A stretch of 29,457 nucleotides of DNA, taken from positions 1-29,457 of the IMG/VR virus record IMGVR_UViG_3300033145_000886; one strand, 5' to 3'. Each line of letters starts with the position of its first letter. Position 1 is the first letter of the stretch. The translations under genes were made by a program, and so were the position numbers. Shown here one piece after another: positions 19,723-29,457 of the stretch. The notes below the pieces were generated by a model that saw only the letters and a program-made list of their open reading frames with translations, ran no database searches and had not been told where the DNA came from. Source of the DNA: a virus.

Positions 19723-21291
19723 CTACGCCGCTCTGCGGCGAAACCTCCCCATTATCCCGCCTGCCCTGGCAATCAGGCCCCTTCGCCCTCCGCTCATCGT
19801 CTCCCTCGGCTTCGGGTCTGTGCCCGCGCATGCGGCCCTGCTCACCTGCAACAGGCTCACCGCCCCCTCTAAGGCGTCCGGGCCGTCGTCATTGACGTTG
19901 CTATCCAGGATGTAGATCAACTGCTCAACGAGTAGATCCTGGTCGGAGTGGCCCTTTACGAATCGGAGGCGGCTGAATTCCACTAAGGGCGAGATCCGGT
20001 TGACGATTCGGGCCTCCTTGTCCGTGGCATGCTTCACTTTCGTAAGGTTGATGAACCGGCCCACTCTCTGCGCATGGTTCTGGTACGAGTCGATCAAAAA
20101 ATCTTCAAACATATTGATCTCAACACCCAGGCCGCAGCCGTACTCTTCGTCGATCTGCCAGGCCGCGGTCCACATCTCATTGACTGTGGCATGCCTGATC
20201 CATGCGTGCAGCACGTCCATTAACTGCGTCTCCGGATCAAGCCCCACGGCCACGATTGCCTTGTAGTCATTCGCCTGGCCGCTCTTTCCGGACGGGTCCA
20301 AAAAGGCCCTGATCTGCCATTCTTTCCGCACAAGAATGTCCACAAGCGGCACGTAAATGATCCACGATTCCTTGATGGGGCTGTCTTCCGCGCCCACGCG
20401 GTTGCGCATTTCCTTGTTGAACCGCACCGTGCCCATTTGACGCCTGCGCTTTTCCAGGCGCTCAAGGGGCCAGAGCGCGGGCCAAAGTGGTGTGCCGTCT
20501 TCACGGATGGCATCGTATTCCTTACCCGGATAAAGGGGATTGCCGTCTTCGTCTTTTGCGGAAAGCAACTGGTCCAGCACGGACCGGGGCGCAAATTTGT
20601 TGCCCACCATAGTGAAGCAAAAACCGTCTGCCAGCGAGCCCAGCACGGCCTGAAGCAGCCAGTCCAGGGCCTCCTTGACCAGCTTCGGATTTTTGACGTT
20701 CTTGTCGTTCTCCAGGTCGTCCACGATCACCCGGTCCGGCCTGTATTGCCTGTTCTTCAGGCCGCGGACTTTTTCGCCACGGCCCCTGGCCAGCACGCGC
20801 ACGCCGCTTGCCGTGACAAAGTCGTTCTCCTTCCACTTGCGGCCCCGGAATTCGCCGAAGTCGTGAATGATTCGCGGGTTTTCCTCAAGCTCAAGGCGGA
20901 TCGGCAGGGTAAATCCCGTGGCCTGATCGTTTGAATCCGAAATGATCATGATGAAATGTCGCAATTCGTAACAGGCATCATGCACGGGCACGCCAAGAGA
21001 GAAAAACGTGCTCTTTGCATGCTCCCTGGGGGCCGCAATAGGAACGATCTCGTCCCGGATATCCGCAAGCTCCGACCATTCCTCATGAAGCTCACCGAAG
21101 GGCTTGAAAAAATAATGCGGCAGGTAGGTCTTCATGAAGTACAACTTGTCCCAGCGCCCGCGCTCTTTGCGCTCGGCCTGCTTTTCGGGCGTGTCGTCCT
21201 CAAACGGAGAAACGCTTTTGCGAATCCAGTCTCTGAGATCCTCAGCCCACTGATCAAAACGATACTCTGTAATTTTAGGTCGCTTGCGCAT
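19723..21291 (-). CDS. Terminase large subunit, 522 aa
   Basis: This is the DNA packaging ATPase and nuclease. Walker A-like A-P-R-E-H-A-K-S lies at residues ~87-94 and Walker B D-R-V-I-V-D-D-L-E-N-D at ~186-196. The nuclease domain shows R-A-F-L-D-P-S-G-K-S-G (~328-338) and N-D-D-G-P-D-A-L-E-G-A (~467-477). The last residues are Arg-rich. I chose ATG 21291, five bases after GAGG; GTG/ATG starts up to 21324 would overlap the small terminase gene more. The end overlaps the last bases of the small subunit gene by 17 bases, a sign of coupling. Relation to the Mu gp28-type is plausible from neighbours. Confidence 0.92.
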   Translation of the reverse strand: MRKRPKITEYRFDQWAEDLRDWIRKSVSPFEDDTPEKQAERKERGRWDKLYFMKTYLPHYFFKPFGELHEEWSELADIRDEIVPIAAPREHAKSTFFSLGVPVHDACYELRHFIMIISDSNDQATGFTLPIRLELEENPRIIHDFGEFRGRKWKENDFVTASGVRVLARGRGEKVRGLKNRQYRPDRVIVDDLENDKNVKNPKLVKEALDWLLQAVLGSLADGFCFTMVGNKFAPRSVLDQLLSAKDEDGNPLYPGKEYDAIREDGTPLWPALWPLERLEKRRRQMGTVRFNKEMRNRVGAEDSPIKESWIIYVPLVDILVRKEWQIRAFLDPSGKSGQANDYKAIVAVGLDPETQLMDVLHAWIRHATVNEMWTAAWQIDEEYGCGLGVEINMFEDFLIDSYQNHAQRVGRFINLTKVKHATDKEARIVNRISPLVEFSRLRFVKGHSDQDLLVEQLIYILDSNVNDDGPDALEGAVSLLQVSRAACAGTDPKPRETMSGGRRGLIARAGGIMGRFRRRAA

Positions 21292-21754
21292 ATTGCCTCT
21301 TAAATGCCTTCGTGAGCGCATCAAAATTTCTTGCCAGGATCTTTAATCCCTGAGGATCTATGGTTTTCAGGGTTCCGGCAATAAATTCCAGATTTTTCAA
21401 AAACATGGTGGGCTCGTCCACATTGACGACCTGCGTCTCCTTTTTTGCGGTGATCCGCGCGAGCACGTCCTCAATGCCTTTCCACGCATGTATTAGCTGG
21501 GCCTTTTCCTGCGGGGACGCCGCATCGCCCGCGGCCTGGAGTGCATCAACCGAAAGTTTTAGTATCCGTATGCGTTTCTGCGAACGCGCCTGCTGAAAAA
21601 AATCCTTCATTTTTTTCCAGCTATATTCTTTTGCCCAATTTTTGAGCTGCGAAACGGACACGCCCGTTTGCGCGGACACCTCTTCAAACGTCCGACCCTC
21701 AAACACATACGCGGCCTGGCAATCATCAACCACATCAAAGGAATACTGGCTCAC
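21275..21754 (-). CDS. Terminase small subunit, 159 aa
   Basis: The first ~55 residues form a helix-turn-helix (A-Y-V-F-E-G-R-T-F-E-E-V-S-A-Q-T-G-V-S-V-S-Q-L-K-N-W), then long helices. This is the layout of small terminase DNA-recognition subunits. It directly precedes and overlaps the large subunit. The start is GTG 21754, overlapping the previous gene stop by GTGA, so translation is likely coupled; its own ribosome site is weak. In Mu-like phages this place is held by the DUF3486 or DUF1804-type protein; I cannot fix which family applies. Confidence 0.75.
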   Translation of the reverse strand: MSQYSFDVVDDCQAAYVFEGRTFEEVSAQTGVSVSQLKNWAKEYSWKKMKDFFQQARSQKRIRILKLSVDALQAAGDAASPQEKAQLIHAWKGIEDVLARITAKKETQVVNVDEPTMFLKNLEFIAGTLKTIDPQGLKILARNFDALTKAFKRQYAQAT

Positions 21755-22056
21755 GAGGCATTGACCCCCGGATCTTCAATTGTGCCTTCGAGCAGGTCCA
21801 CGCCCTTGGCCGCGAGGGTCAAAGTTTCTTCCATGCCGGATTCCATCACACCTTTTGTCGTTCGTGTTATGTAGCCGCGCTCGGCCAGATAATCGACAAA
21901 ACCGGAAAGCTCTCCCGGCGACACCAGTATGCCCGCATCTATCAGGCAGATGTCGATCGTGTGGAGACGCACGCCGTGCGGATAGTTAATTTTTAACACC
22001 CTCAGGATATATCCGCGGGCCTCGCGGTTCATCACTGCTTGAAATTTTTTGCTCAT
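21751..22056 (-). CDS. Winged-helix Mu-like phage protein (VpaChn25_0724-type), 101 aa
   Basis: The pattern N-R-E-A-R-G-Y-I-L-R-V-L-K, then G-I-L-V-S-P-G-E-L-S-G-F-V-D-Y-L-A-E-R-G-Y-I and T-L-A-A-K-G-V-D-L-L-E-G with a closing E-D-P-G-V matches a small winged-helix family that Mu-like phages encode just before their small terminase. The function is unknown; DNA binding in packaging or late control is possible. Start ATG 22056 has a GGGGAGAG site. It overlaps the preceding gene by ATGA and the next by GTGA. Confidence 0.75.
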   Translation of the reverse strand: MSKKFQAVMNREARGYILRVLKINYPHGVRLHTIDICLIDAGILVSPGELSGFVDYLAERGYITRTTKGVMESGMEETLTLAAKGVDLLEGTIEDPGVNAS

Positions 22057-22337
22057 CTATTTCTCTCCCCTATGTCTATTTTGCCGACGATTTCGAGCGT
22101 CTTGTCCAGCTTGTGCTGAAACGCCGCCATCGTGCGCACATAATCCTCGCGCAGTACAAACTCCCGCGGCAGGGTCTTTTCAAGGGCGCCCAGGTCGTCC
22201 TTGAGGCTCGCGGATCGCTCGGCCTGCACGCGAAAATCGTTTCGGAGGTTGTATAAATAAAATACAATCACACCGGACGCGATGCCCAGGACCACGTTAA
22301 AAACCATCAGGAAAACCCGGAACAATTCAGCACTCAT
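22053..22337 (-). CDS. DUF2730-like membrane protein, 94 aa
   Basis: A membrane helix spans residues ~6-28 (F-R-V-F-L-M-V-F-N-V-V-L-G-I-A-S-G-V-I-V-F). A helical, coiled tail (about 30-90) with S-L-K-D-D-L-G-A-L-E-K-T-L-P-R-E-F-V-L-R-E-D-Y follows. This is the shape of the DUF2730/Mu gp25 family, encoded at the start of Mu-like head modules. GGAGGG precedes ATG 22337. It is the first gene of the long leftward late run. Its promoter should lie in 22338-22497, but I see no clear minus-strand consensus there, as expected if a phage activator is needed. Confidence 0.7.
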   Translation of the reverse strand: MSAELFRVFLMVFNVVLGIASGVIVFYLYNLRNDFRVQAERSASLKDDLGALEKTLPREFVLREDYVRTMAAFQHKLDKTLEIVGKIDIGERNR

Positions 22338-22352
22338 TTATGCCCTCCAATG

Positions 22353-22365
22353 TGCCATTTTGGCA
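22353..22365. promoter_or_regulatory. Short palindrome TGCCA-TTT-TGGCA ahead of the late gene run
   Basis: A 5-bp-arm palindrome lies 16 bases upstream of the DUF2730-like start and overlaps the sigma-54-like element. It could be an operator for either divergent transcript. Support is limited to symmetry and location. Confidence 0.35.
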
Positions 22366-22376
22366 TGATTTTTGCA
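22360..22376 (+). promoter_or_regulatory. Sigma-54-like promoter element
   Basis: Plus strand TTGGCATGATTTTTGCA matches the YTGGCACG-N4-TTGCW form with one mismatch (C to T). GG and GC have the usual 10-base gap. It is directed at the plus-strand island, with a start about 110 bases before the first gene. No activator site was identified. Confidence 0.35.
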
Positions 22377-22417
22377 ATTCCTTTATATATTGTCTTGCTG
22401 TTTATTTGATTTTTTGC

Positions 22418-22446
22418 TTGACATTTGCTATGTTTTTCGCTACAAT
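22418..22446 (+). promoter_or_regulatory. Consensus sigma-70 promoter of the plus-strand island
   Basis: TTGACA (22418-22423), a spacer of exactly 17 bases, and TACAAT (22441-22446) lie in very AT-rich DNA. Start would be about 22453. A full AAAAAAGGAGGTGG ribosome site follows at 22479-22492, before ATG 22498. It would work without phage factors. Confidence 0.85.
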
Positions 22447-22497
22447 ATTTTTAAAGATATAACATATTAAAATCATTACAAAAAAGGAGGTGGTTAT

Positions 22498-22968
22498 ATG
22501 TCGAAAACAGTAAGCCCGCGAATCGCGGACAGCGCCGCGGAGTTTTACCCCTCTATCTTCCGCAATCTCAACGCGGGCGTGGAGCACGTCCTGGACTCGT
22601 TCCCGGTGTTGTACCGGATGACGATCTGCTCTCTGCGAGGCCGGTTCTCGTGCGGGGAGCTGTCGCTCATGATCGATGTTTTTAACGGGACCGCGCTGCT
22701 GCCAAGGCTTCTGGGCCAGCACCTGGGGCTGCAATGCGCGGACGGCATCGCCCTGGACGGCCTGGACGAAAAATGGGAGATCGAAAAAACCCCGTTTCTG
22801 GAGCGCATCCAGGCTCTCACGCTGTTTGAGAGCGCATGCCTGGAGCTTTGGGCCGTGGGGTTCTGGGCCACGCTCCACGAGGGGGTTGATGACGGAACGA
22901 AACTTAATGCCTGGTTGAAAAATTTGTTGGTCGAGGGAGGTGAGAAAAAATCCGAAACAACGAAGTGA
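22498..22968 (+). CDS. Unrecognised protein, first gene of moron-like island, 156 aa
   Basis: No family is recognised. The protein looks alpha-helical and soluble: F-Y-P-S-I-F-R-N-L-N-A-G-V-E-H-V-L-D near residue 17, R-F-S-C-G-E-L-S-L-M-I-D-V-F-N-G-T (about 49-66), then F-E-S-A-C-L-E-L-W-A-V-G-F-W near residue 111. Three Cys and several Trp suggest a compact fold. No signal peptide. It has a strong promoter and ribosome site of its own and is opposite to both flanking phage modules, as in genes expressed by lysogens. A role in host defence, exclusion or regulation is possible but unproved. Confidence 0.8.
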   Translation: MSKTVSPRIADSAAEFYPSIFRNLNAGVEHVLDSFPVLYRMTICSLRGRFSCGELSLMIDVFNGTALLPRLLGQHLGLQCADGIALDGLDEKWEIEKTPFLERIQALTLFESACLELWAVGFWATLHEGVDDGTKLNAWLKNLLVEGGEKKSETTK

Positions 22969-23073
22969 GCCCCCGGTTGCGGGCAGGAGAACGCCCGCCG
23001 GTGCGCAAACACCGGCTCCGGAGGCTCGGGAGAAACATCGCACAAAAAACCAAAAAACGAAAGGAGAAAAATC
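22969..23073 (+). other. Structured intercistronic region with two adjacent stem-loops
   Basis: GCGGGC/GCCCGC (22979-22998, loop AGGAGAAC) and CCGGTG/CACCGG (22998-23015, loop CGCAAA) form two adjoining hairpins between the two island genes. They are GC-rich in an otherwise A-rich leader that ends in AAAGGAG. They may stabilise the transcript or alter the ratio of the two proteins. An ORF in another frame across this region (from 22965) is judged a shadow. Confidence 0.55.
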
Positions 23074-23970
23074 ATGGAAATCAACTACCAAATCAGCACA
23101 GAACAACAAAGAAGACAAATTTTGGCCGGGGAAAACGCAAAAGTCAACCAGATCGCAATCCTCCCCGACAGCGATCTGAGAACAGAACGAGGCGGCGAGG
23201 CGATACTCTCGCACCCGCTGACCAAAATCGGGGCTGACGGCACTATCACGCTCGAGCTCGGGGTGCCCGCGTTGCTGGACAAATCCATCTACGCCAGCGC
23301 TGATTGCGGCCCCGCTGGCGGGAATGTTTTGCGCGAGGAGTGGTACCTGTGCTGGCCAGGCGCCGGAGTCTGGTGCCCCAATATGCGATACCCTTTGGAC
23401 TCCATGATCCGAACCGTGTCTGATCTGGCCGAAATCCTCGCGGAGATCGATGTGATAGCATCCGAGCGGCAGGCGGAAGCGGACAAAAAAACCCGCGAGT
23501 CCGCCGAAACGTTCCAGGCTCGGATCGACGCATATAATGCGAACCACCGACGACAATCTGAGCCGAAAAACGACGCCGAGCCGGAAAACGACGCCGAGGC
23601 CGATTACGACTCTTATCAGACCTACCGTTCCCTGGACGGCTTGGAGCTGATGCTCCAATACGGCAGGGAGAGACAGGCTAAATCGATGGTCTTGGATTTC
23701 CTGGAGGTCGAATTCGCGGCCAACATGTCCGAGCGCGGGTTTGAAATGCTCAACATCGACGATCTGGAATGCAGCAGCCTGGAGAACTACGAGGGAGATA
23801 TTCCGGGCGAGGCCCTGCGCGAGTTGGTTAAGCTCGCGGACATCGACGGTACGCCCTACGTGTATTACGAGGATGCCGATCCCTACATCGGGCTGGACGT
23901 GTCGCTCAAGTTTATGAATACAAGCAGGCTGGTAGTCGTCAACGTGTTTCAGTGGGATACTGACGCCTAA
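23074..23970 (+). CDS. Unrecognised acidic protein, second gene of moron-like island, 298 aa
   Basis: No family is recognised. The N-terminal part (~1-120) is beta-rich with several Gly and two W-C pairs (W-Y-L-C-W-P-G-A-G-V-W-C-P). The middle is a charged helix (about 125-170: L-A-E-I-L-A-E-I-D-V-I-A-S-E-R-Q) followed by a low-complexity segment of two similar EP(K/E)NDA units (18-bp tandem repeat at about 23563-23598). The C-terminal part is acidic. It has no signal peptide or membrane segment. AAAGGAG precedes ATG 23074. An intrinsic terminator follows at once, so it ends the island operon. A protein-binding or DNA-mimic role is conceivable from acidity only. Confidence 0.8.
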   Translation: MEINYQISTEQQRRQILAGENAKVNQIAILPDSDLRTERGGEAILSHPLTKIGADGTITLELGVPALLDKSIYASADCGPAGGNVLREEWYLCWPGAGVWCPNMRYPLDSMIRTVSDLAEILAEIDVIASERQAEADKKTRESAETFQARIDAYNANHRRQSEPKNDAEPENDAEADYDSYQTYRSLDGLELMLQYGRERQAKSMVLDFLEVEFAANMSERGFEMLNIDDLECSSLENYEGDIPGEALRELVKLADIDGTPYVYYEDADPYIGLDVSLKFMNTSRLVVVNVFQWDTDA

Positions 23971-23977
23971 CCCCCCG

Positions 23978-24009
23978 AGCCCCGGTGAGAGCCGGGGCTT
24001 TTCTTTTTT
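23978..24009 (+). terminator. Rho-independent terminator of the island operon
   Basis: AGCCCCGG (23978-23985), loop TGAGAG, CCGGGGCT (23992-23999), then TTCTTTTTT. A perfect 8-bp GC-rich stem and a T-run lie eight bases after the stop of the 298-residue gene. Confidence 0.9.
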
Positions 24010-24025
24010 GAAAGGAGGTGATTTT

Positions 24026-24346
24026 TTGGATCTCACACAACGTGTACGATATAAAGTGCTCACGATCAGGGGCACGTCGACGGGCCTGGCGCACAGCACG
24101 GTAATCCAATATCGCATGCGGCGCTGGAATTTCCCCGCAGAGTCCAAGCCGATCCCCGGCCCAGGCGGGCCAGGCGGATTGTGGACATGCCCAAGCCGCG
24201 GCCAGGCACGATCCTTGCAACGATACCTCAAAGCAAAATACGATAGGGACACAGTGATCCACCTGTGTATCATCGACAAAAATCTGTATGAGAGTTCCTG
24301 CCGCACAAAAACCAATCGATTATTTTTACTCGATCCCATCGCCTAA
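24026..24346 (+). CDS. Small unrecognised basic protein after the island terminator, 106 aa
   Basis: No family is recognised. The start is TTG 24026, seven bases after a full AAAGGAGGTGAT ribosome site; a GTG/ATG-based longer start has no such support. The N-terminal 35 residues (L-T-Q-R-V-R-Y-K-V-L-T-I-R-G-T-S-T-G-L-A-H-S-T-V-I-Q-Y-R) have the look of a short helix-turn-helix. The rest is basic with two Cys. It ends four bases inside the convergent ParB/PAPS fusion gene. No promoter is seen after the terminator, so read-through of the island transcript may be needed. Confidence 0.6.
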   Translation: MDLTQRVRYKVLTIRGTSTGLAHSTVIQYRMRRWNFPAESKPIPGPGGPGGLWTCPSRGQARSLQRYLKAKYDRDTVIHLCIIDKNLYESSCRTKTNRLFLLDPIA

Positions 24347-25608
24347 TCTTTTCGGGACCGTGCCTGGTGCACGGTCCCAAGCCCCATAATTTTTCTGAGC
24401 CTGTTTCTGACCTCTTCGTCCGAGATACCGTGAGAGCACGCGCCCTCGGCCATGTAGCCCAGGGCTCGCAAAAAAACGGCAGGGTCATGCTCTCTCAGAT
24501 CGTTCCACTCCTCACGTGTCGTGGCAAAACAAAATATACATCCCAAGCGATCACGATATCTGTACGAGTAATGTAATTGCCAGGCATGCTTTTCGACCAA
24601 GGCCAAAACCTGGCCTTTTGCCAAATCCAATATGGGCCGGGCAATGAAAATCTTGTGCCCCGCGTGCATAGCGCGATCCTTTGCCTGGGCTCTTCGCTCA
24701 CTTTCCTCTTTTCGCCATCCTTCGCAGACTACAAGATCTTGCCTGCCCGTATATCCATTGTCGCAGAAAAAGGCGTTTGTCGGATGGATCTTCCAGGTAA
24801 TTGTGCACCAGTTCCTGTTTTGCAAGGGCCAGCCGTTTTTACGAAACATCGCGGCTTTTTCCTCTTCGGTCATTTGTTTGCCGATAACCTCGAGGGCCAA
24901 CGCTTCTTTGGCGGCAAAATCGCGCACAAAGCCCTCCAGGTCCGGGTAATCAAGCGGGGTGCGACAAAAAACAAGTGTCATTTTTTCCCTGGGCACACCA
25001 TAGTCGAGCAGGACGGCCACGGTGGCCATAGAATCCTTACCGCCGGAGAAATTGACCAAAACGCGATTGAAGGACTTGATCCAGTCCATTAAGGGGATCG
25101 CAGCGATTTCGGGCGACACCGGGATATCGCGGGCAATGCCTTCCTTTTCCTCTTTCTCCTCCCCAAACAGGTCGGGATAGTCAGAGCGGAGATCCCCGAG
25201 ATCTATTTCCGGGATCTCGATATCGTCGAACACGTCGCCGGCAAGCTGCATCTCGCTTAGAAAATCGTATAAGCCCTCGCCGGAAATCCTGCCGTAGCGG
25301 CTATTGATCTTGAGCAAAATCTCGGCTGCCTCCTGTCGGCTTTCCGCCTGAATCTCGGCCACGGGAAGCGACGGGACCTCAAAGCCCTTTGCGGCCATGT
25401 CTTGCAGGGTAAAGAGGCGCTGGTGCCCGTCCAGGATCTCATTGCCCCAAATGAAGATCGGCACACAAAAGCCGTGCTTCAGAAATGATTTCTTGAGCTT
25501 TTTCAGGTTCTGCGCGGGCAATGTCTTGAGATTGCCCTGAAATGTCTTTAGCTCCGACAGAGGCATATTCTTTGATCCTTTGCATCGGATCTTGATTTCT
25601 TTTGCCAT
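24343..25608 (-). CDS. ParB-like/PAPS reductase-like fusion protein, 421 aa
   Basis: Residues ~15-105 are a ParB N-terminal-type domain, with I-L-D-G-H-Q-R (58-64). Residues ~175-400 are a PP-loop ATPase of the PAPS reductase type: F-S-G-G-K-D-S (187-193), N-W-C-T-I-T-W-K (266-273), G-W-R-K-E-E-S-E-R-R-A (297-307), G-C-I-F-C (356-360) and Cys391. The PP-loop domain is close in plan to IbrA and DndC, and the ParB domain to IbrB. IbrA and IbrB are separate prophage-linked partners that activate gene expression. A nucleic-acid modification or regulatory role follows by analogy. It sits after the holin, next to the moron-like island. The last 12 codons run over a palindrome (24354-24378). Confidence 0.8.
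   Translation of the reverse strand: MAKEIKIRCKGSKNMPLSELKTFQGNLKTLPAQNLKKLKKSFLKHGFCVPIFIWGNEILDGHQRLFTLQDMAAKGFEVPSLPVAEIQAESRQEAAEILLKINSRYGRISGEGLYDFLSEMQLAGDVFDDIEIPEIDLGDLRSDYPDLFGEEKEEKEGIARDIPVSPEIAAIPLMDWIKSFNRVLVNFSGGKDSMATVAVLLDYGVPREKMTLVFCRTPLDYPDLEGFVRDFAAKEALALEVIGKQMTEEEKAAMFRKNGWPLQNRNWCTITWKIHPTNAFFCDNGYTGRQDLVVCEGWRKEESERRAQAKDRAMHAGHKIFIARPILDLAKGQVLALVEKHAWQLHYSYRYRDRLGCIFCFATTREEWNDLREHDPAVFLRALGYMAEGACSHGISDEEVRNRLRKIMGLGTVHQARSRKD
24354..24378. repeat. Perfect 10-bp palindrome at convergent gene ends
   Basis: GGGACCGTGC (24354-24363), loop CTGGT, GCACGGTCCC (24369-24378). It lies within the last codons of the ParB/PAPS gene, just after the convergent stop. A weak relative (GGGAC...GTCCC) is at 27240-27256. 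It may act as a bidirectional transcription barrier, although no T-run adjoins it. Confidence 0.7.
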
Positions 25609-26217
25609 TTACCTACCTCTCCCTATCAGTCCTGTTATTGATTTTGCGATGCTCGGCAGATCGCTCGGCAGGCCGCGCTTGTCATACTTGGACCGGACAA
25701 CCGTGTAGCCGGTAAAGCCCGTGAGAAATGCCGACCACAATCCCGTGCCGATCCAGACCAGCAGGCTTTTCAGCACGCCGAGTTGAGCGGCATCCAGATT
25801 CAGATAGCAGGCGTCGATATAGATCACCGGCGCAAAAGCCGAGTAAAAGCACACGAAACTGAAAAGCCGTCTCAGGATCTTGGGCCGGGTCCTGCGGACA
25901 AAAGGATCTTCCGAGGTCAATGCCGTCTTCACAACCTCGCGGCCGCCTGCCTGATCTTCGTAGACCAGCTTTTCTCTCTCAAATTCATACCGTGCCTTGA
26001 CTTGCTCGTTTTCAAGGAGCAACCGCTTCAGCTCGACCTGCTGCTCCGGGGAGATCCGGCCGCTCTGGATCTCGGCCTGCACGCCCTCGATCAGCTTGCC
26101 TGCCTCGACCACCGTCTCAGGCGGTTCTTTGCCGAACAGGCAGGATATAATGCCCCAGGCCTTTGGTACATACTTTGCCGCCCCCAGGATCAGGGCTATG
26201 TCGTCAATGCCGAACAT
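25609..26217 (-). CDS. 3TM holin-like membrane protein, 202 aa
   Basis: The N-terminal half is amphipathic and helical (about 1-95). The pattern D-P-F-V-R-R-T-R-P-K-I-L-R-R-L (about 105-120) then precedes three hydrophobic stretches: F-S-F-V-C-F-Y-S-A-F-A-P-V-I-Y, L-G-V-L-K-S-L-L-V-W-I-G-T-G-L and a short G-F-T-G-Y-T. This matches holins of the three-membrane-segment family (gene transfer agent/phage type). Holins open the inner membrane so that the endolysin reaches the wall. ACAGGAGGC precedes ATG 26217. It is next to the small lysis-region protein and amidase. Confidence 0.75.
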   Translation of the reverse strand: MFGIDDIALILGAAKYVPKAWGIISCLFGKEPPETVVEAGKLIEGVQAEIQSGRISPEQQVELKRLLLENEQVKARYEFEREKLVYEDQAGGREVVKTALTSEDPFVRRTRPKILRRLFSFVCFYSAFAPVIYIDACYLNLDAAQLGVLKSLLVWIGTGLWSAFLTGFTGYTVVRSKYDKRGLPSDLPSIAKSITGLIGRGR

Positions 26218-26235
26218 AATTAGCCTCCTGTGACT

Positions 26236-26418
26236 TCAAAAAATCATATGCCAGATGCAGTCATAGAGCCTCATAATCCGGCTCCGCAGAAACCATTTGT
26301 AAGGTAGCCTGCAATACAAATGCAGCGGGTTCGTCTTATGTTGCAGATAGAGCCAAGCCCGCGTTGCTGTTACAACTGCCTTCTGAATAGCTCTATGTCG
26401 AAACGCTCTCCGGGACAC
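26236..26418 (-). CDS. Small basic lysis-cassette protein, 60 aa
   Basis: The centre W-L-Y-L-Q-H-K-T-N-P-L-H-L-Y-C-R-L (about 22-38) recalls a short conserved phage protein with an N-P-L-H-(V/L)-Y-C-R-L box encoded near lysis genes; function unknown to me. The protein is highly basic with a hydrophobic centre. The start is GTG 26418 inside the end of the amidase gene (49-base overlap) with no strong ribosome site, so coupling is possible. Support comes from the box and the cassette, but the start is uncertain. Confidence 0.5.
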   Translation of the reverse strand: MSRRAFRHRAIQKAVVTATRAWLYLQHKTNPLHLYCRLPYKWFLRSRIMRLYDCIWHMIF

Positions 26419-26861
26419 GACTTGTACCCCGCAAAATCCCTGTGGCCGAACACGTTGCTTGTTGGGAGGTTAAAAACCTCCACCAGGGTTCTGACCAGAT
26501 TCAATCCCAGATCCCACTGCTTCTTGGACGGAGGCATCTTGTCGAAGTTGCCCACGAAACAGATCCCCAACGATTGGCTGTTCATGGCCCCCGGCTTGCA
26601 GTGCGCTCCGCAATCGTTCATCATCCTGCCGAGCAGGATCTCGTAGCTCTTGCCGACCCGCTCAATGCCGAAGTGGTAGCCGACATCCCTCCACGGCCTT
26701 TTTACTTTATGGCCCTGAACGATCAAATCTTTTGCTTCGTGCTCGGCAATGATCGTTCCATTATAGGCCCAGGATTTATGATAGCGCCTGATCGCACCCC
26801 AGGACACGGTCTTGCCGTCTGCGGTTAAGCTGTGATGCAGTATGATGTATTCGGGATTCAA
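26370..26861 (-). CDS. Endolysin: N-acetylmuramoyl-L-alanine amidase (amidase-2/PGRP type), 163 aa
   Basis: The zinc and catalytic set of T7-lysozyme-like amidases is present: H-H-S-L (H9/H10), Y62 in V-G-Y-H-F-G-I, G-H-R-D (H140), K147 and C149 in Y-K-S-C-P-G. It cuts the amide bond between MurNAc and L-Ala in peptidoglycan. No signal peptide, so release depends on the holin. I chose TTG 26861, just after GGGGGGAG. The TTG at 26882 lies in a heptamer repeat and would add seven repeat-derived residues. Confidence 0.85.
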   Translation of the reverse strand: MNPEYIILHHSLTADGKTVSWGAIRRYHKSWAYNGTIIAEHEAKDLIVQGHKVKRPWRDVGYHFGIERVGKSYEILLGRMMNDCGAHCKPGAMNSQSLGICFVGNFDKMPPSKKQWDLGLNLVRTLVEVFNLPTSNVFGHRDFAGYKSCPGERFDIELFRRQL

Positions 26862-26872
26862 CTTTCTCCCCC

Positions 26873-26899
26873 CAATCGACAATCATCAATCATCAATCA
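26873..26899. repeat. Intergenic heptamer array (CAATCGAC/ATCAATC)
   Basis: Four heptamers join the start region of the amidase to the end of the 84-residue gene. This is the first array right of the repeat-free 7-kb stretch. Confidence 0.85.
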
Positions 26900-27147
26900 G
26901 TACTCCTCCCCACGGCCTCTTCAAGCGCCTGGGCGACCTCCATCTCTTTTTCTCGTGATATGTCCGCAGTCACATTGACGGTCCGGGTCTCGTAATTAAT
27001 CTTGACATCGATCTCTTTGATGTTGAACCGCTTCAGCACGCCCCGCACGGCAGCCGTGAAAAACGCATCAATTAGGTTTTCCTGGGTGGCCTCCACCTGC
27101 TTGGCCGGTGACTGAAACATGGGCCATCCACATGCCTTTGTTGTCAT
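26893..27147 (-). CDS. Unrecognised small protein, 84 aa
   Basis: No family is known to me. The N-terminus is polar (MTTKACGWPMFQSPAKQ), followed by a helix (E-N-L-I-D-A-F-F-T-A-A-V-R-G-V-L-K-R) and a beta pair (I-K-E-I-D-V-K-I-N-Y-E-T-R-T-V-N-V-T-A-D-I). A final helix is acidic (E-K-E-M-E-V-A-Q-A-L-E-E-A). GGGGAAAT precedes ATG 27147. It is upstream of the endolysin and so in the same run. The stop lies in a repeat array. Confidence 0.6.
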   Translation of the reverse strand: MTTKACGWPMFQSPAKQVEATQENLIDAFFTAAVRGVLKRFNIKEIDVKINYETRTVNVTADISREKEMEVAQALEEAVGRSTD

Positions 27148-27160
27148 GATTTCCCCTTTT

Positions 27161-27280
27161 CTATGGCCGGTCGGCCCGCAAAGCCTTTGGCCCCAGGCCG
27201 ATCGGATAAGGCGATAATGGCTGAGTGTCCGAGCATCCGGGGACTGGCACCGTCCCGCCTTGATATATCCCCTCTTTCAT
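27161..27280 (-). CDS. Possible 39-aa small protein
   Basis: A frame from ATG 27280 to TAG 27161 reads MKEGIYQGGTVPVPGCSDTQ and a Pro/Leu-rich end. The ribosome site is weak and adjoins a heptamer array. It might be a tiny gene or a chance frame over a GGGAC...GTCCC palindrome. Confidence 0.25.
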   Translation of the reverse strand: MKEGIYQGGTVPVPGCSDTQPLSPYPIGLGPKALRADRP

Positions 27281-27283
27281 TCT

Positions 27284-27319
27284 TTCAATCGACAATCATC
27301 AATCGCCAATCATCAATCC
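27284..27319. repeat. Intergenic heptamer array (ATCAATC/GACAATC/GCCAATC)
   Basis: Five heptamers adjoin the stop of the MazG-like gene. One unit is GCCAATC, a variant also present at 5091-5097. Confidence 0.85.
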
Positions 27320-27550
27320 TCAAACCACATCCACCAAAAACTTCAGCGCCATCGCCGCTACCTTCACGGCCTCTCGCTGTAAGAGTTCGTCTTTGCGGGG
27401 GTGCGGCTTTTTCTTCACGATCTCCCACAGCTTGTCCATCTTTTCCCTCATCACCGCAAACCCCTCATGCGGCGACCCGAACGGCTTATGGTGCCGGGTG
27501 GCCTCCTCGTGCTTTTCAATGATCAGCCCTATGGCCAGGGGCTTATCCAT
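27320..27550 (-). CDS. MazG-like small protein, probably inactive, 76 aa
   Basis: The pattern P-H-E-G-F-A-V-M-R-E-K-M-D-K-L-W-E-I-V-K-K then R-E-A-V-K-V-A-A-M-A-L-K-F-L-V-D resembles phage all-alpha NTP pyrophosphohydrolases, whose form is usually H-E-G-Y-A-V-I-x-E-E-x-D-E-L-W. Here two of the metal-binding acidic positions are Lys. Such proteins hydrolyse dNTPs; this one may have lost the activity or changed partner. It starts at ATG 27550 with a weak site. It is a member of the small accessory run. Confidence 0.5.
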   Translation of the reverse strand: MDKPLAIGLIIEKHEEATRHHKPFGSPHEGFAVMREKMDKLWEIVKKKPHPRKDELLQREAVKVAAMALKFLVDVV

Positions 27551-27559
27551 AAAATCCTG

Positions 27560-27775
27560 TCAGGCTTTCAATTTGGAGCAGGCAAAAAACCATTCTTTCC
27601 TGCGATGCCTCCGCCCCTTGGCCCATCGTACAATCATCCAGGCCCTCAGCGACGGATATCCAAGTTGCCGCCATCTTGGCTTTGAGCTTTCAGCTTTCAG
27701 CTTTGAGCTGTCTGGCTTTGCGATCTTTCTTGTGTAAACAGGCTCGGATCCTTCCTGTATTTCGTGTTGGCTCAT
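27560..27775 (-). CDS. Small basic protein with a repeat-derived insert, 71 aa
   Basis: The protein has three parts: an acidic start (MSQHEIQEGSEPVYTRKIAKP), an insert (D-S-S-K-L-K-A-E-S-S-K) read from an AGCTTTGAGC array at 27679-27710, and a basic block R-W-R-Q-L-G-Y-P-S-L-R-A-W-M-I-V-R-W-A-K-G-R-R-H-R-R-K-E-W-F-F. The last block has the look of a conserved short DNA- or RNA-binding protein. ATG 27775 has no ribosome site and abuts a repeat. Translation of the basic part may also begin elsewhere. Confidence 0.45.
   Translation of the reverse strand: MSQHEIQEGSEPVYTRKIAKPDSSKLKAESSKPRWRQLGYPSLRAWMIVRWAKGRRHRRKEWFFACSKLKA
27679..27710. repeat. AGCTTTGAGC array within a coding frame
   Basis: Four plus-strand units (CTTTGAG, CTTTCAG, CTTTCAG, CTTTGAG) are translated in frame as part of the 71-residue protein. 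Confidence 0.85.
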
Positions 27776-27820
27776 ATCGATTGTCTATTGATGATTGATG
27801 ATTGATGATTGATAATTGAT
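27776..27820. repeat. Heptamer array in opposite orientation (GATTGAT on plus strand)
   Basis: ATTGATG-ATTGATG-ATTGATG-ATTGATA units run on the plus strand. All other arrays of this family show these units on the minus strand, so this one is inverted relative to them and to the genes. Confidence 0.85.
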
Positions 27821-28347
27821 CACCGGCAGATCCACGCCCAAATGCCACAGCCCAGCGCAATCAGGAAACACACAACAGCAACCGGCCCATAAAAGAAAAC
27901 ATCAAAGCCCTCTGTCTGGCTGCCAGCCTGCCAGGCCAGGACGCCCGACCAGGTCGATGCAATCAAAAAGATTGCAGCGGCTATGGCTAAAACCCAAAAT
28001 TTCATTACTCTTCCTCCTTCATTTGTATTTTCAGATTTTCCGCCTTTTGGAGGAGGGGATATAATTTTCACTCCTTCTTTAATCATGCGTTTCGGTGGCG
28101 GTGGCGGTGGCGGTGGCGGTGGCGGTGGCTCGGGCTGGCTGAATCCGTGGAAACCCTCGGCCTGCCTGAATGTGTCGCCATTCTCCCCTTTAGCGCAAAC
28201 CGATGCAACGATTGAGGCCCAGGTGGCAGGAGATATGATTTCCGTCATGATAACCGGAGATCCTTCAACCGGAGCCTCGGCCTTTACAATTTTAACCGAT
28301 CCGTCTTCTAACCGCTTAAAAAACAGCCCGTTCCCTGCGTGATACAT
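27820..28347 (-). CDS. Pro-rich protein fused to a two-membrane-segment protein, 175 aa
   Basis: Residues 1-70 (N-G-L-F-F-K-R-L-E-D-G-S-V-K-I-V-K, then W-A-S-I-V-A-S-V) match a short conserved phage domain I have seen in many phages but cannot name. Twelve consecutive prolines follow (from a CGGTGG hexamer repeat, 28093-28128), then a charged linker. From residue 115 (ATG 28005) a 61-residue segment has two membrane helices (W-V-L-A-I-A-A-A-I-F-L-I and A-V-V-C-F-L-I-A-L). That ATG has its own AAGGAGG about eight bases upstream, so it can start a separate protein. AGGAGGGC precedes the full start at 28347. Confidence 0.6.
   Translation of the reverse strand: MYHAGNGLFFKRLEDGSVKIVKAEAPVEGSPVIMTEIISPATWASIVASVCAKGENGDTFRQAEGFHGFSQPEPPPPPPPPPPPPKRMIKEGVKIISPPPKGGKSENTNEGGRVMKFWVLAIAAAIFLIASTWSGVLAWQAGSQTEGFDVFFYGPVAVVCFLIALGCGIWAWICR
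28003..28022 (-). promoter_or_regulatory. Internal ribosome site and start for the membrane part of the 175-aa gene
   Basis: AAGGAGG on the minus strand precedes ATG 28005 at about eight bases, in frame with the larger gene. It would yield a 61-residue double-membrane-helix protein. Confidence 0.6.
28093..28128. repeat. Six copies of CGGTGG, encoding twelve prolines
   Basis: A perfect hexamer tandem lies in coding sequence. Gain or loss of units changes proline number by two and keeps the frame, a possible length-variable linker. Confidence 0.9.
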
Positions 28348-28357
28348 TTTTGCCCTC

Positions 28358-29029
28358 CTACACCAATCCCCTCACCAGCTCTGTCAGCTCTCTCGCCTTG
28401 GCCTCGATCTCTCGCGCCCTGGCTTTCGGCAGCAGGACCGAGCCGTGCTTCTGGCCTATCTTGAGCAGGTCGTCGCGGAAACGTTCCGGCTCTCGCATCA
28501 TTTTTTCAATCATGGCATCCACAACCGCAATGGGCGTGGGCCTGCCATCGATGGTGATCATCTCCTGACCGGTGCGATCCTCAAGATCATCGAACTCAAA
28601 AGAGAGTTGCTGCACCATCTCCACGAGCACGGCCTGCTTGCCCCTGGCCGCCTTGGTGAGCCCGGTGAGCCCGCGCTGCCTGAAACTGTCATAAAACTTC
28701 TGGCCCTCCGCTTCGGTGCCGATCCAGTACCCGCCGTAATGACCGGACCGCGAGTAAACCGGCACGTTGTGCTCTATGAGAAGATGGTTTTGCAGCCGCC
28801 TCACGTGCCGCTTCCATTTGGCCAGGTAATCATCGAGGATCTCTGTGATTGGGTTCCAGGGCTGCCTTAAGACCCCGGCATATCGGTGCGCGAGATCCTC
28901 GGCAGAAATCGCATAGTCCTCGCCCACATGATCAACCCACATGATCCCCAAAAACGCAGACTCGGCGCGGGTCAGCACCTGTGTGTGCTTCCCGGTTTTC
29001 GGGTCTATGCCGAGATCTTCTCTCTTCAT
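28358..29029 (-). CDS. Unrecognised helix-rich regulatory-like protein, 223 aa
   Basis: I cannot name the family. Residues 20-75 include L-T-R-A-E-S-A-F-L-G-I-M-W and E-D-L-A-H-R-Y-A-G-V. Then V-R-R-L-Q-N-H-L-L-I-E-H-N-V-P-V-Y-S-R-S-G-H-Y-G-G-Y-W-I-G (about 75-104) resembles the winged-helix DNA-binding part of small phage regulators, followed by F-R-Q-R-G-L-T-G-L-T-K-A-A. The C-terminus is a long charged helix. AAAGAGAC precedes ATG 29029, overlapping the preceding stop by ATGA. It may control the downstream genes, but this is inference. Confidence 0.55.
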   Translation of the reverse strand: MKREDLGIDPKTGKHTQVLTRAESAFLGIMWVDHVGEDYAISAEDLAHRYAGVLRQPWNPITEILDDYLAKWKRHVRRLQNHLLIEHNVPVYSRSGHYGGYWIGTEAEGQKFYDSFRQRGLTGLTKAARGKQAVLVEMVQQLSFEFDDLEDRTGQEMITIDGRPTPIAVVDAMIEKMMREPERFRDDLLKIGQKHGSVLLPKARAREIEAKARELTELVRGLV

Positions 29030-29217
29030 GTCTCTTTGCTTTCAGCCTTCAGCTTTGAGCTTTCAGCTATCTTCCGCCCCTGCTCACAATCCGCGCACTT
29101 CTCTTGGTGCTTTGACAGTTTTTCCGTGGCCTGCGCCTGTTTTTGCCAGAACACGCAGAGCGCCTTGGCTGTCTGCCTCTCCATCTTCTTGCAGAAAAAG
29201 TAATTTGAATCAGTCAT
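29026..29217 (-). CDS. Small Cys-rich protein with a repeat-derived tail, 63 aa
   Basis: Residues 1-45 hold four Cys (F-F-C, A-L-C-V, C-A-D-C), which could form a zinc site. The last ~13 residues (A-E-S-S-K-L-K-A-E-S-K-E-T) are encoded by an AGCTTTGAGC array (29036-29070). It overlaps the next gene by ATGA. The ribosome site is weak. Function is unknown. Confidence 0.55.
   Translation of the reverse strand: MTDSNYFFCKKMERQTAKALCVFWQKQAQATEKLSKHQEKCADCEQGRKIAESSKLKAESKET
29036..29070. repeat. AGCTTTGAGC heptamer array within the gene end
   Basis: Units CTTTCAG, CCTTCAG, CTTTGAG and CTTTCAG are read in frame at the C-terminus of the 63-residue protein. Confidence 0.85.
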
Positions 29218-29220
29218 ATC

Positions 29221-29457
29221 TCAAACAGCTTGCCCTGAGCCATTGCCCCGATCACTAAATACCCCCCCCCCCGCAAGCTCTCTCCACTCCTGGACGATCC
29301 GGGAGACGTTGTTCAGCGCGGCATCCAGACCGATGCCATGATTCAACCCCTCGCACACGCAGTCACAGCGATCCACACCCGCGGGGTTGCCACCATAACA
29401 CCTGGCGTCGCACCGGCCCACAAGGCCGCTGCTGTCTCTGACTTCAATTAGGGTCAT
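29221..29457 (-). CDS. Small Cys-rich phage protein, possibly partial at the right edge, 78 aa
   Basis: The frame begins with ATG at the last base of the window; an earlier start beyond it cannot be excluded. The pattern C-D-A-R-C-Y-G-G-N-P-A-G-V-D-R-C-D-C-V-C-E-G-L-N-H-G (about 16-41) resembles a small Cys-rich protein common in phage accessory regions. An 11-G tract on the minus strand (29272-29262) encodes A-G-G-G; a one-base change would move the frame to an early stop. Function is unknown. Confidence 0.6.
   Translation of the reverse strand: MTLIEVRDSSGLVGRCDARCYGGNPAGVDRCDCVCEGLNHGIGLDAALNNVSRIVQEWRELAGGGVFSDRGNGSGQAV
29262..29272. repeat. C11 homopolymer in coding sequence
   Basis: Eleven C on the plus strand lie near the 3' end of the Cys-rich gene. 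Such tracts are prone to slippage and to sequencing error. Confidence 0.9.

Follow-up and report, generated by a model that had tools for sequence, protein, structure and literature searches.

The window analysed here, a 29,457-base IMG/VR virus record from an uncultured phage, carries on its + strand a two-gene cassette whose first product, a protein of 156 amino acids, belongs to an uncatalogued family which, judging from sequence comparison and modelling, is in all likelihood a distant relative of the anti-CRISPR protein AcrIE10, as part of a superfamily in the wide sense. We tentatively propose, by analogy with AcrIE10, that the 156-aa gene serves a temperate Mu-like phage in counter-defence, probably by blocking a type I CRISPR system. 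The positions of the cassette elements and of other genes discussed below are collected in Table 1.

Table 1. Features of the window and, where a locus name is given, of related loci
Feature	Position	Strand	Remarks
Membrane protein, 389 aa	12623-13792	-	O-antigen ligase domain (Wzy_C, E 4.7e-11); amid structural genes
Terminase large subunit	19723-21291	leftward	PHROG 38, E 6e-74
Short inverted repeat (TGTGCCATTTTGGCATG)	22351-22367		7-pair stem, between divergent units
Sigma-70-type promoter, TTGACA-17-TACAAT	22418-22446	+	51 bp upstream of first ATG
Helical protein, 156 aa	22498-22968	+	very probably AcrIE10-related (family, profile tests, predicted fold)
Perfect 7-bp hairpin, GCCGGTG-N6-CACCGGC	22997-23016	+	between 156-aa and 298-aa genes
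Acidic orphan, 298 aa	23074-23970	+	pI 4.3; coding by codon usage
Intrinsic terminator	23977-24000	+	10-bp stem, 7 G-C pairs, then TTTTCTTTTTT
Doubtful third ORF, 106 aa	24026-24346	+	TTG start; strong ribosome site AAAGGAGGTG; basic, pI 10.2
ParB-like + PAPS-reductase domain fusion	24343-25608	-	matched by PADLOC models SspD, BrxP and DndC
Protein, 175 aa	27820-28347	-	run of about a dozen prolines (PPPPPPPPPPPP) preceding a predicted membrane segment
F2 genes (examples)	L032:6602-7873; L008:4555-5889; L040:6886-7902		seven more loci
88-90-aa gene upstream of AcrIE10	L042:2184-2456; L047:3644-3952		Klebsiella plasmid (L042) and phage (L047)
MucR-like zinc-finger gene	L048:4342-4899; L049:4344-4850		follows AcrIE10 homologue
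ThiF, Mov34/MPN and nucleotidyltransferase genes	L060:8899-12285		Desulfosarcina ovata plasmid with 156-family homologue

Nearly all genes of the window run leftward, in the order tail, capsid, Mu F-like head protein, portal, terminase and a small spanin-like/lipoprotein gene, with the ParB-PAPS reductase fusion, a holin-like protein and an amidase further right. The terminase is nearest to those of Mu-like Pseudomonas phages such as MP42 and JBD69 (~31% identity), and on this ground the virus was taken to be temperate and Mu-like; the window shows no recognised integrase, transposase or repressor. The cassette is flanked by the spanin-like gene on one side and the PAPS gene on the other, and lies between genes for lysis and for DNA packaging. 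An Rfam search of positions 20000-29457 gave no match, and no tRNA was found.

Three leftward genes of the window are recorded as observations in their own right. The Wzy_C protein has a pI of 10; its gene, whose codon usage departs furthest from the norm among the reference genes, is possibly one for surface conversion. The ParB-PAPS reductase fusion is possibly linked to DNA modification, and similar genes lie near the 156-family gene in loci L009 and L032. The third encodes the 175-aa proline-run protein.

Both cassette genes run against the leftward modules on either side, as the preliminary description had stated, and their codon usage is that of the phage: the scores per codon are 0.233 for the 156-aa gene and 0.261 for the 298-aa gene (reference phage genes, 0.04-0.36), and the five other frames across the two genes score below zero. 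An antisense ORF of 645 codons (22402-24339) was rejected, its codon score also being below zero; it is spuriously open because both + strand genes are without TTA, CTA and TCA codons. The third ORF begins beyond the terminator and has a neutral codon score (-0.01), which leaves its coding status uncertain.

Apart from the consensus promoter reported earlier, neither strand of the window has a site that scores 11/12 or more, and shuffles of the whole window gave a mean of 0.1 such sites; when the AT-rich intergenic stretch itself was shuffled, a site of at least 11/12 arose on the + strand in 14 of 2000 cases. The claim of perfect ribosome sites stands for the first gene, which has AAGGAGGTGG; that of the second, AAAGGAGA, is good, short of perfect. 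A strong terminator does follow the second gene, with a folding energy (dG) of -20.3 kcal/mol and a z of -3.2. The inverted repeat ahead of the promoter is a possible operator.

The 298-aa protein proved to be the orphan that it had been called. No relative was found with the whole protein and its two halves against viral contigs, by tblastn against phages, or by hhalign against ~500 proteins and families from related loci. Neither the 298-aa nor the 106-aa ORF showed a Pfam domain, PADLOC models matched none of the 156-, 298- and 106-aa proteins, and a match of the 298-aa protein to the H-NS N-terminus (E 0.087) was taken as noise. It is acidic as described, and unexceptionally so: its charge is -9.7 per 100 aa, and a late-region protein of the same phage reaches -12.4. 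Since other proteins of this phage are charged to a like degree, its acidity by itself does not point to DNA mimicry. Its position after the 156-aa gene, ahead of a single terminator, suggests that the two are co-transcribed. At no other locus of the 156-aa family was a relative of the 298-aa protein found, which makes a two-gene system doubtful.

For the 156-aa protein, in contrast, the statement that it has no recognised relatives did not hold. A single protein search returned two relatives; alignments of growing depth gave six and then 32 viral-contig loci and three genome-contig loci, placing the family on 36 contigs (the window, 32 other viral contigs and three from metagenome-assembled genomes, MAGs). 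Further members were found on viral contig L052 and on a plasmid of Desulfosarcina ovata (WP_155326323). The three MAGs are labelled Paceibacterota, Methanoperedens and Nitrospiraceae, and in two of them terminase or portal genes lie nearby. In the genomes and plasmids covered by the searches, family members turned up on phage-type contigs and one plasmid only; 296 Nitrospirota genomes gave no match except the already known prophage, and tblastn with three members gave none against 50,697 phage records. No credible match to the family was obtained in Pfam, PHROGs, NCBIfam or PADLOC, the best of the stray single matches (PDC-S69 of PADLOC, E 0.0026, in one of 31 members) being dismissed as noise. 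The family alignment of 31 sequences has six invariant positions (E54, L107, E116, A119, G121 and W123), and its members are acidic (pI about 4.6-6). The D. ovata plasmid with the homologue also has ThiF, Mov34/MPN and nucleotidyltransferase genes (Table 1), which look like a CBASS-type defence operon.

In 18 of the 36 loci a terminase large subunit gene lies 0.75-4 kb from the family gene within the sequence stretch examined, on the same strand in eight and on the opposite strand in ten, and lysis genes adjoin the family gene in the window and in L035. The neighbouring terminases that were tested fall into five PHROG families (38, 9, 2, 15 and 3717), which suggests transfer of the gene between unrelated phages. 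This scatter, together with the cassette's own promoter and terminator and its opposite strand, bears out the description of a moron-like accessory cassette. Four relatives (L012, L013, L016 and L017) likewise have a near-consensus promoter of their own (TTGACA/G-17-C/TAAAAT), 26 bp before the ATG, with an integrase adjacent, and several others are the last gene of an ordinary operon and have no promoter of their own. Directly or nearly directly upstream of the family gene in ten loci is a gene for a protein of 338-444 aa, here called F2, with a conserved C-terminus (ESHEITSPSL...LPPGEYRLY) and no credible match in Pfam or PHROG. Small regulator-like genes, judged by eye, were seen near the family gene in L024, L026 and L029.

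When the family profile was compared with the PDB, chains of AcrIE10 appeared at an E-value of about 0.3, which is not significant by itself, and the link was therefore tested by independent routes. The best PDB sequence match, 9r2l 'N37' (E 0.019), was judged to be a chance match, as it looks designed and has little of the conserved pattern. In hhalign, the family scored 32.4 (probability 54) against five AcrIE10 sequences, two of them from plasmids (Klebsiella and Edwardsiella) and three from viral contigs; the best control scores were 21.9 among 200 column-shuffles and 25.4 among 499 decoys. An HMM built from AcrIE10 placed 156-family members in all of the top 13 ranks among 679 phage-locus proteins, and with the family HMM three AcrIE10 homologues outranked every background protein and 1000 shuffled sequences. 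In the joint alignment, G27, E54, P69, D82 and K103 of the family correspond to G27, E54, mostly P69, D81 and K/R98 of AcrIE10, at an identity of only about 15%.

The predicted structure points the same way. The AlphaFold model made from the 31-sequence alignment (pLDDT 88.8) is all-helical, in agreement with the preliminary description. On re-alignment to 155 Foldseek candidates with VIA-align, the best PDB match was apo AcrIE10 (9m71; Z 7.4), followed by the AcrIE10-DNA complex (9m7t; Z 7.3), each over 111 of 113-115 residues, with the next unrelated entry at Z 3.0; a Z below 8 for a helical protein leaves some remaining doubt on the fold match. An earlier model from 10 sequences (pLDDT 76.6) gave AcrIE10 at Z 6.5 and the next entry at 3.4. 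Foldseek alone, run against the PDB with either model at E up to 10, did not list AcrIE10 and gave no match, and the structural match that ranked first in BFVD was to an uncharacterised protein of a siphovirus (E 0.2, prob 0.99). Each of these lines is modest; taken together, they make it very probable that the family is related to AcrIE10.

AcrIE10 is a Klebsiella plasmid anti-CRISPR (PDB 8JI9, 9M71, 9M7T and 9UER). It is reported to be dimeric (PMC12740422) and to stop the assembly of type I-E Cascade by binding Cas7e in the groove between Cas7 subunits, where it blocks Cas7-Cas7 contacts and crRNA loading (PMC13131331). Both it and the 156-aa protein are small, all-helical and encoded by mobile elements, and its phage homologues in L048 and L049 lie near late phage genes, as the 156 family does. 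There are differences as well: the N-terminal RNPSFTPSPxLR, invariant in five AcrIE10 homologues, is absent from the family, which has an extra C-terminal signature (E-x-W-A-x-G-x-W) and helix of its own, and the 88-90-aa gene upstream of AcrIE10 has no match among the 679 phage-locus proteins. Since RNPSFTPSP and the partner are missing and the C-terminal signature is present, the target of the 156-aa protein may differ from that of AcrIE10. The 88-90-aa gene is common to the Klebsiella plasmid and a phage (E 4e-18), and its product is a candidate partner of AcrIE10. The MucR-like zinc-finger genes of L048 and L049 (E 1e-22 to each other) perhaps encode regulators of the AcrIE10 homologues that they follow.

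Two further systems invite comparison. Mu-like Pseudomonas phages carry small promoter-equipped anti-CRISPR genes among their late genes, and the JBD group of such loci resembles the window in that the window's terminase is closest to those of MP42 and JBD69 (31%). As differences, no Acr-associated helix-turn-helix (Aca) gene was recognised in the window cassette, and the cassette is placed between lysis and terminase genes. AcrIF25 is another Acr that attacks the Cas7 interface (reviewed in PMC13131331); its likeness to the 156-aa protein is one of analogy only, no sequence or fold match having been seen.

For the 156-aa gene we infer the following course of action. Its product, predicted to be compact and all-helical and to share the superfamily of AcrIE10, would probably attach to one subunit of the type I CRISPR complex of the host, of Cas7 type or another, and so keep the complex from forming. 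With a sigma-70 promoter of its own, the cassette would not depend on the late operon for its expression and could be active early in infection or in the prophage. The acidic 298-aa protein would be a co-transcribed, phage-specific companion; a need for it is not claimed. Cas1 is encoded in all three MAGs that hold relatives and a PF05107-type Cas7 in two, and type I-E markers (CT1975, Cse1) were found in none, binning being uncertain and the PF09344 model silent in the E. coli control. The absence of these markers makes Cas7e an unlikely target in the three MAGs, which, uncertainly binned as they are, prove nothing. A broader version of the proposal, in which a large uncatalogued anti-CRISPR family, sister to AcrIE10, has members that shifted from Cas7e to other type I Cascades (I-B or I-C) and that each work with a different phage-specific partner, such as the 298-aa protein or F2, is rather doubtful.

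Because AcrIE10 has been crystallised with DNA (9m7t), the chief rival to a counter-defence role is one in regulation: the 156-aa protein would bind DNA and might, for instance, repress the divergent late operon or its own promoter. With that complex ranking second among the structural matches, DNA binding may be what the shared domain chiefly does; the family gene often begins at a divergent junction by the terminase, and the intergenic stretch of the cassette holds the inverted repeat. The acidity of the family proteins, the position of many members at operon ends or on the terminase strand, and the lack of a recognised Pfam DNA-binding domain argue against this role, which we hold to be unlikely.

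That the family gene is so often beside terminase or lysis genes raises the alternative of an accessory late protein aiding packaging, lysis or morphogenesis. The frequency of nearby terminases and the adjacent lysis genes described above are what would be expected of it, yet the terminase is on the opposite strand in more than half of these loci and belongs to five different families, a homologue occurs on a non-phage plasmid, and there is the resemblance to AcrIE10; we consider this reading improbable. Defence against other phages by the 156/298-aa pair, expressed in the lysogen as a superinfection or anti-phage moron, which the preliminary description had put forward, would suit the promoter and terminator, the opposite strand, the late-region setting and the mobile distribution, but it found no positive support and is very unlikely, as neither protein nor the 31 aligned family members had a credible PADLOC match, family members are found with no 298-aa protein beside them, and the closest relative that has been characterised is an anti-CRISPR.

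Counter-defence is favoured over defence for this last reason: through its relation to AcrIE10, the family is more likely to act against bacterial immunity than to protect the host. If this is true, AcrIE10 would be one twig of an old and widespread family, and several dozen phage sequences would become candidates for tests against type I CRISPR systems in bacteria and archaea from the environment. The comparison would also separate those features of AcrIE10 that serve Cas7 binding from those that serve the fold only, and would tell if binding to DNA, as in the AcrIE10 crystal, is the ancestral state.
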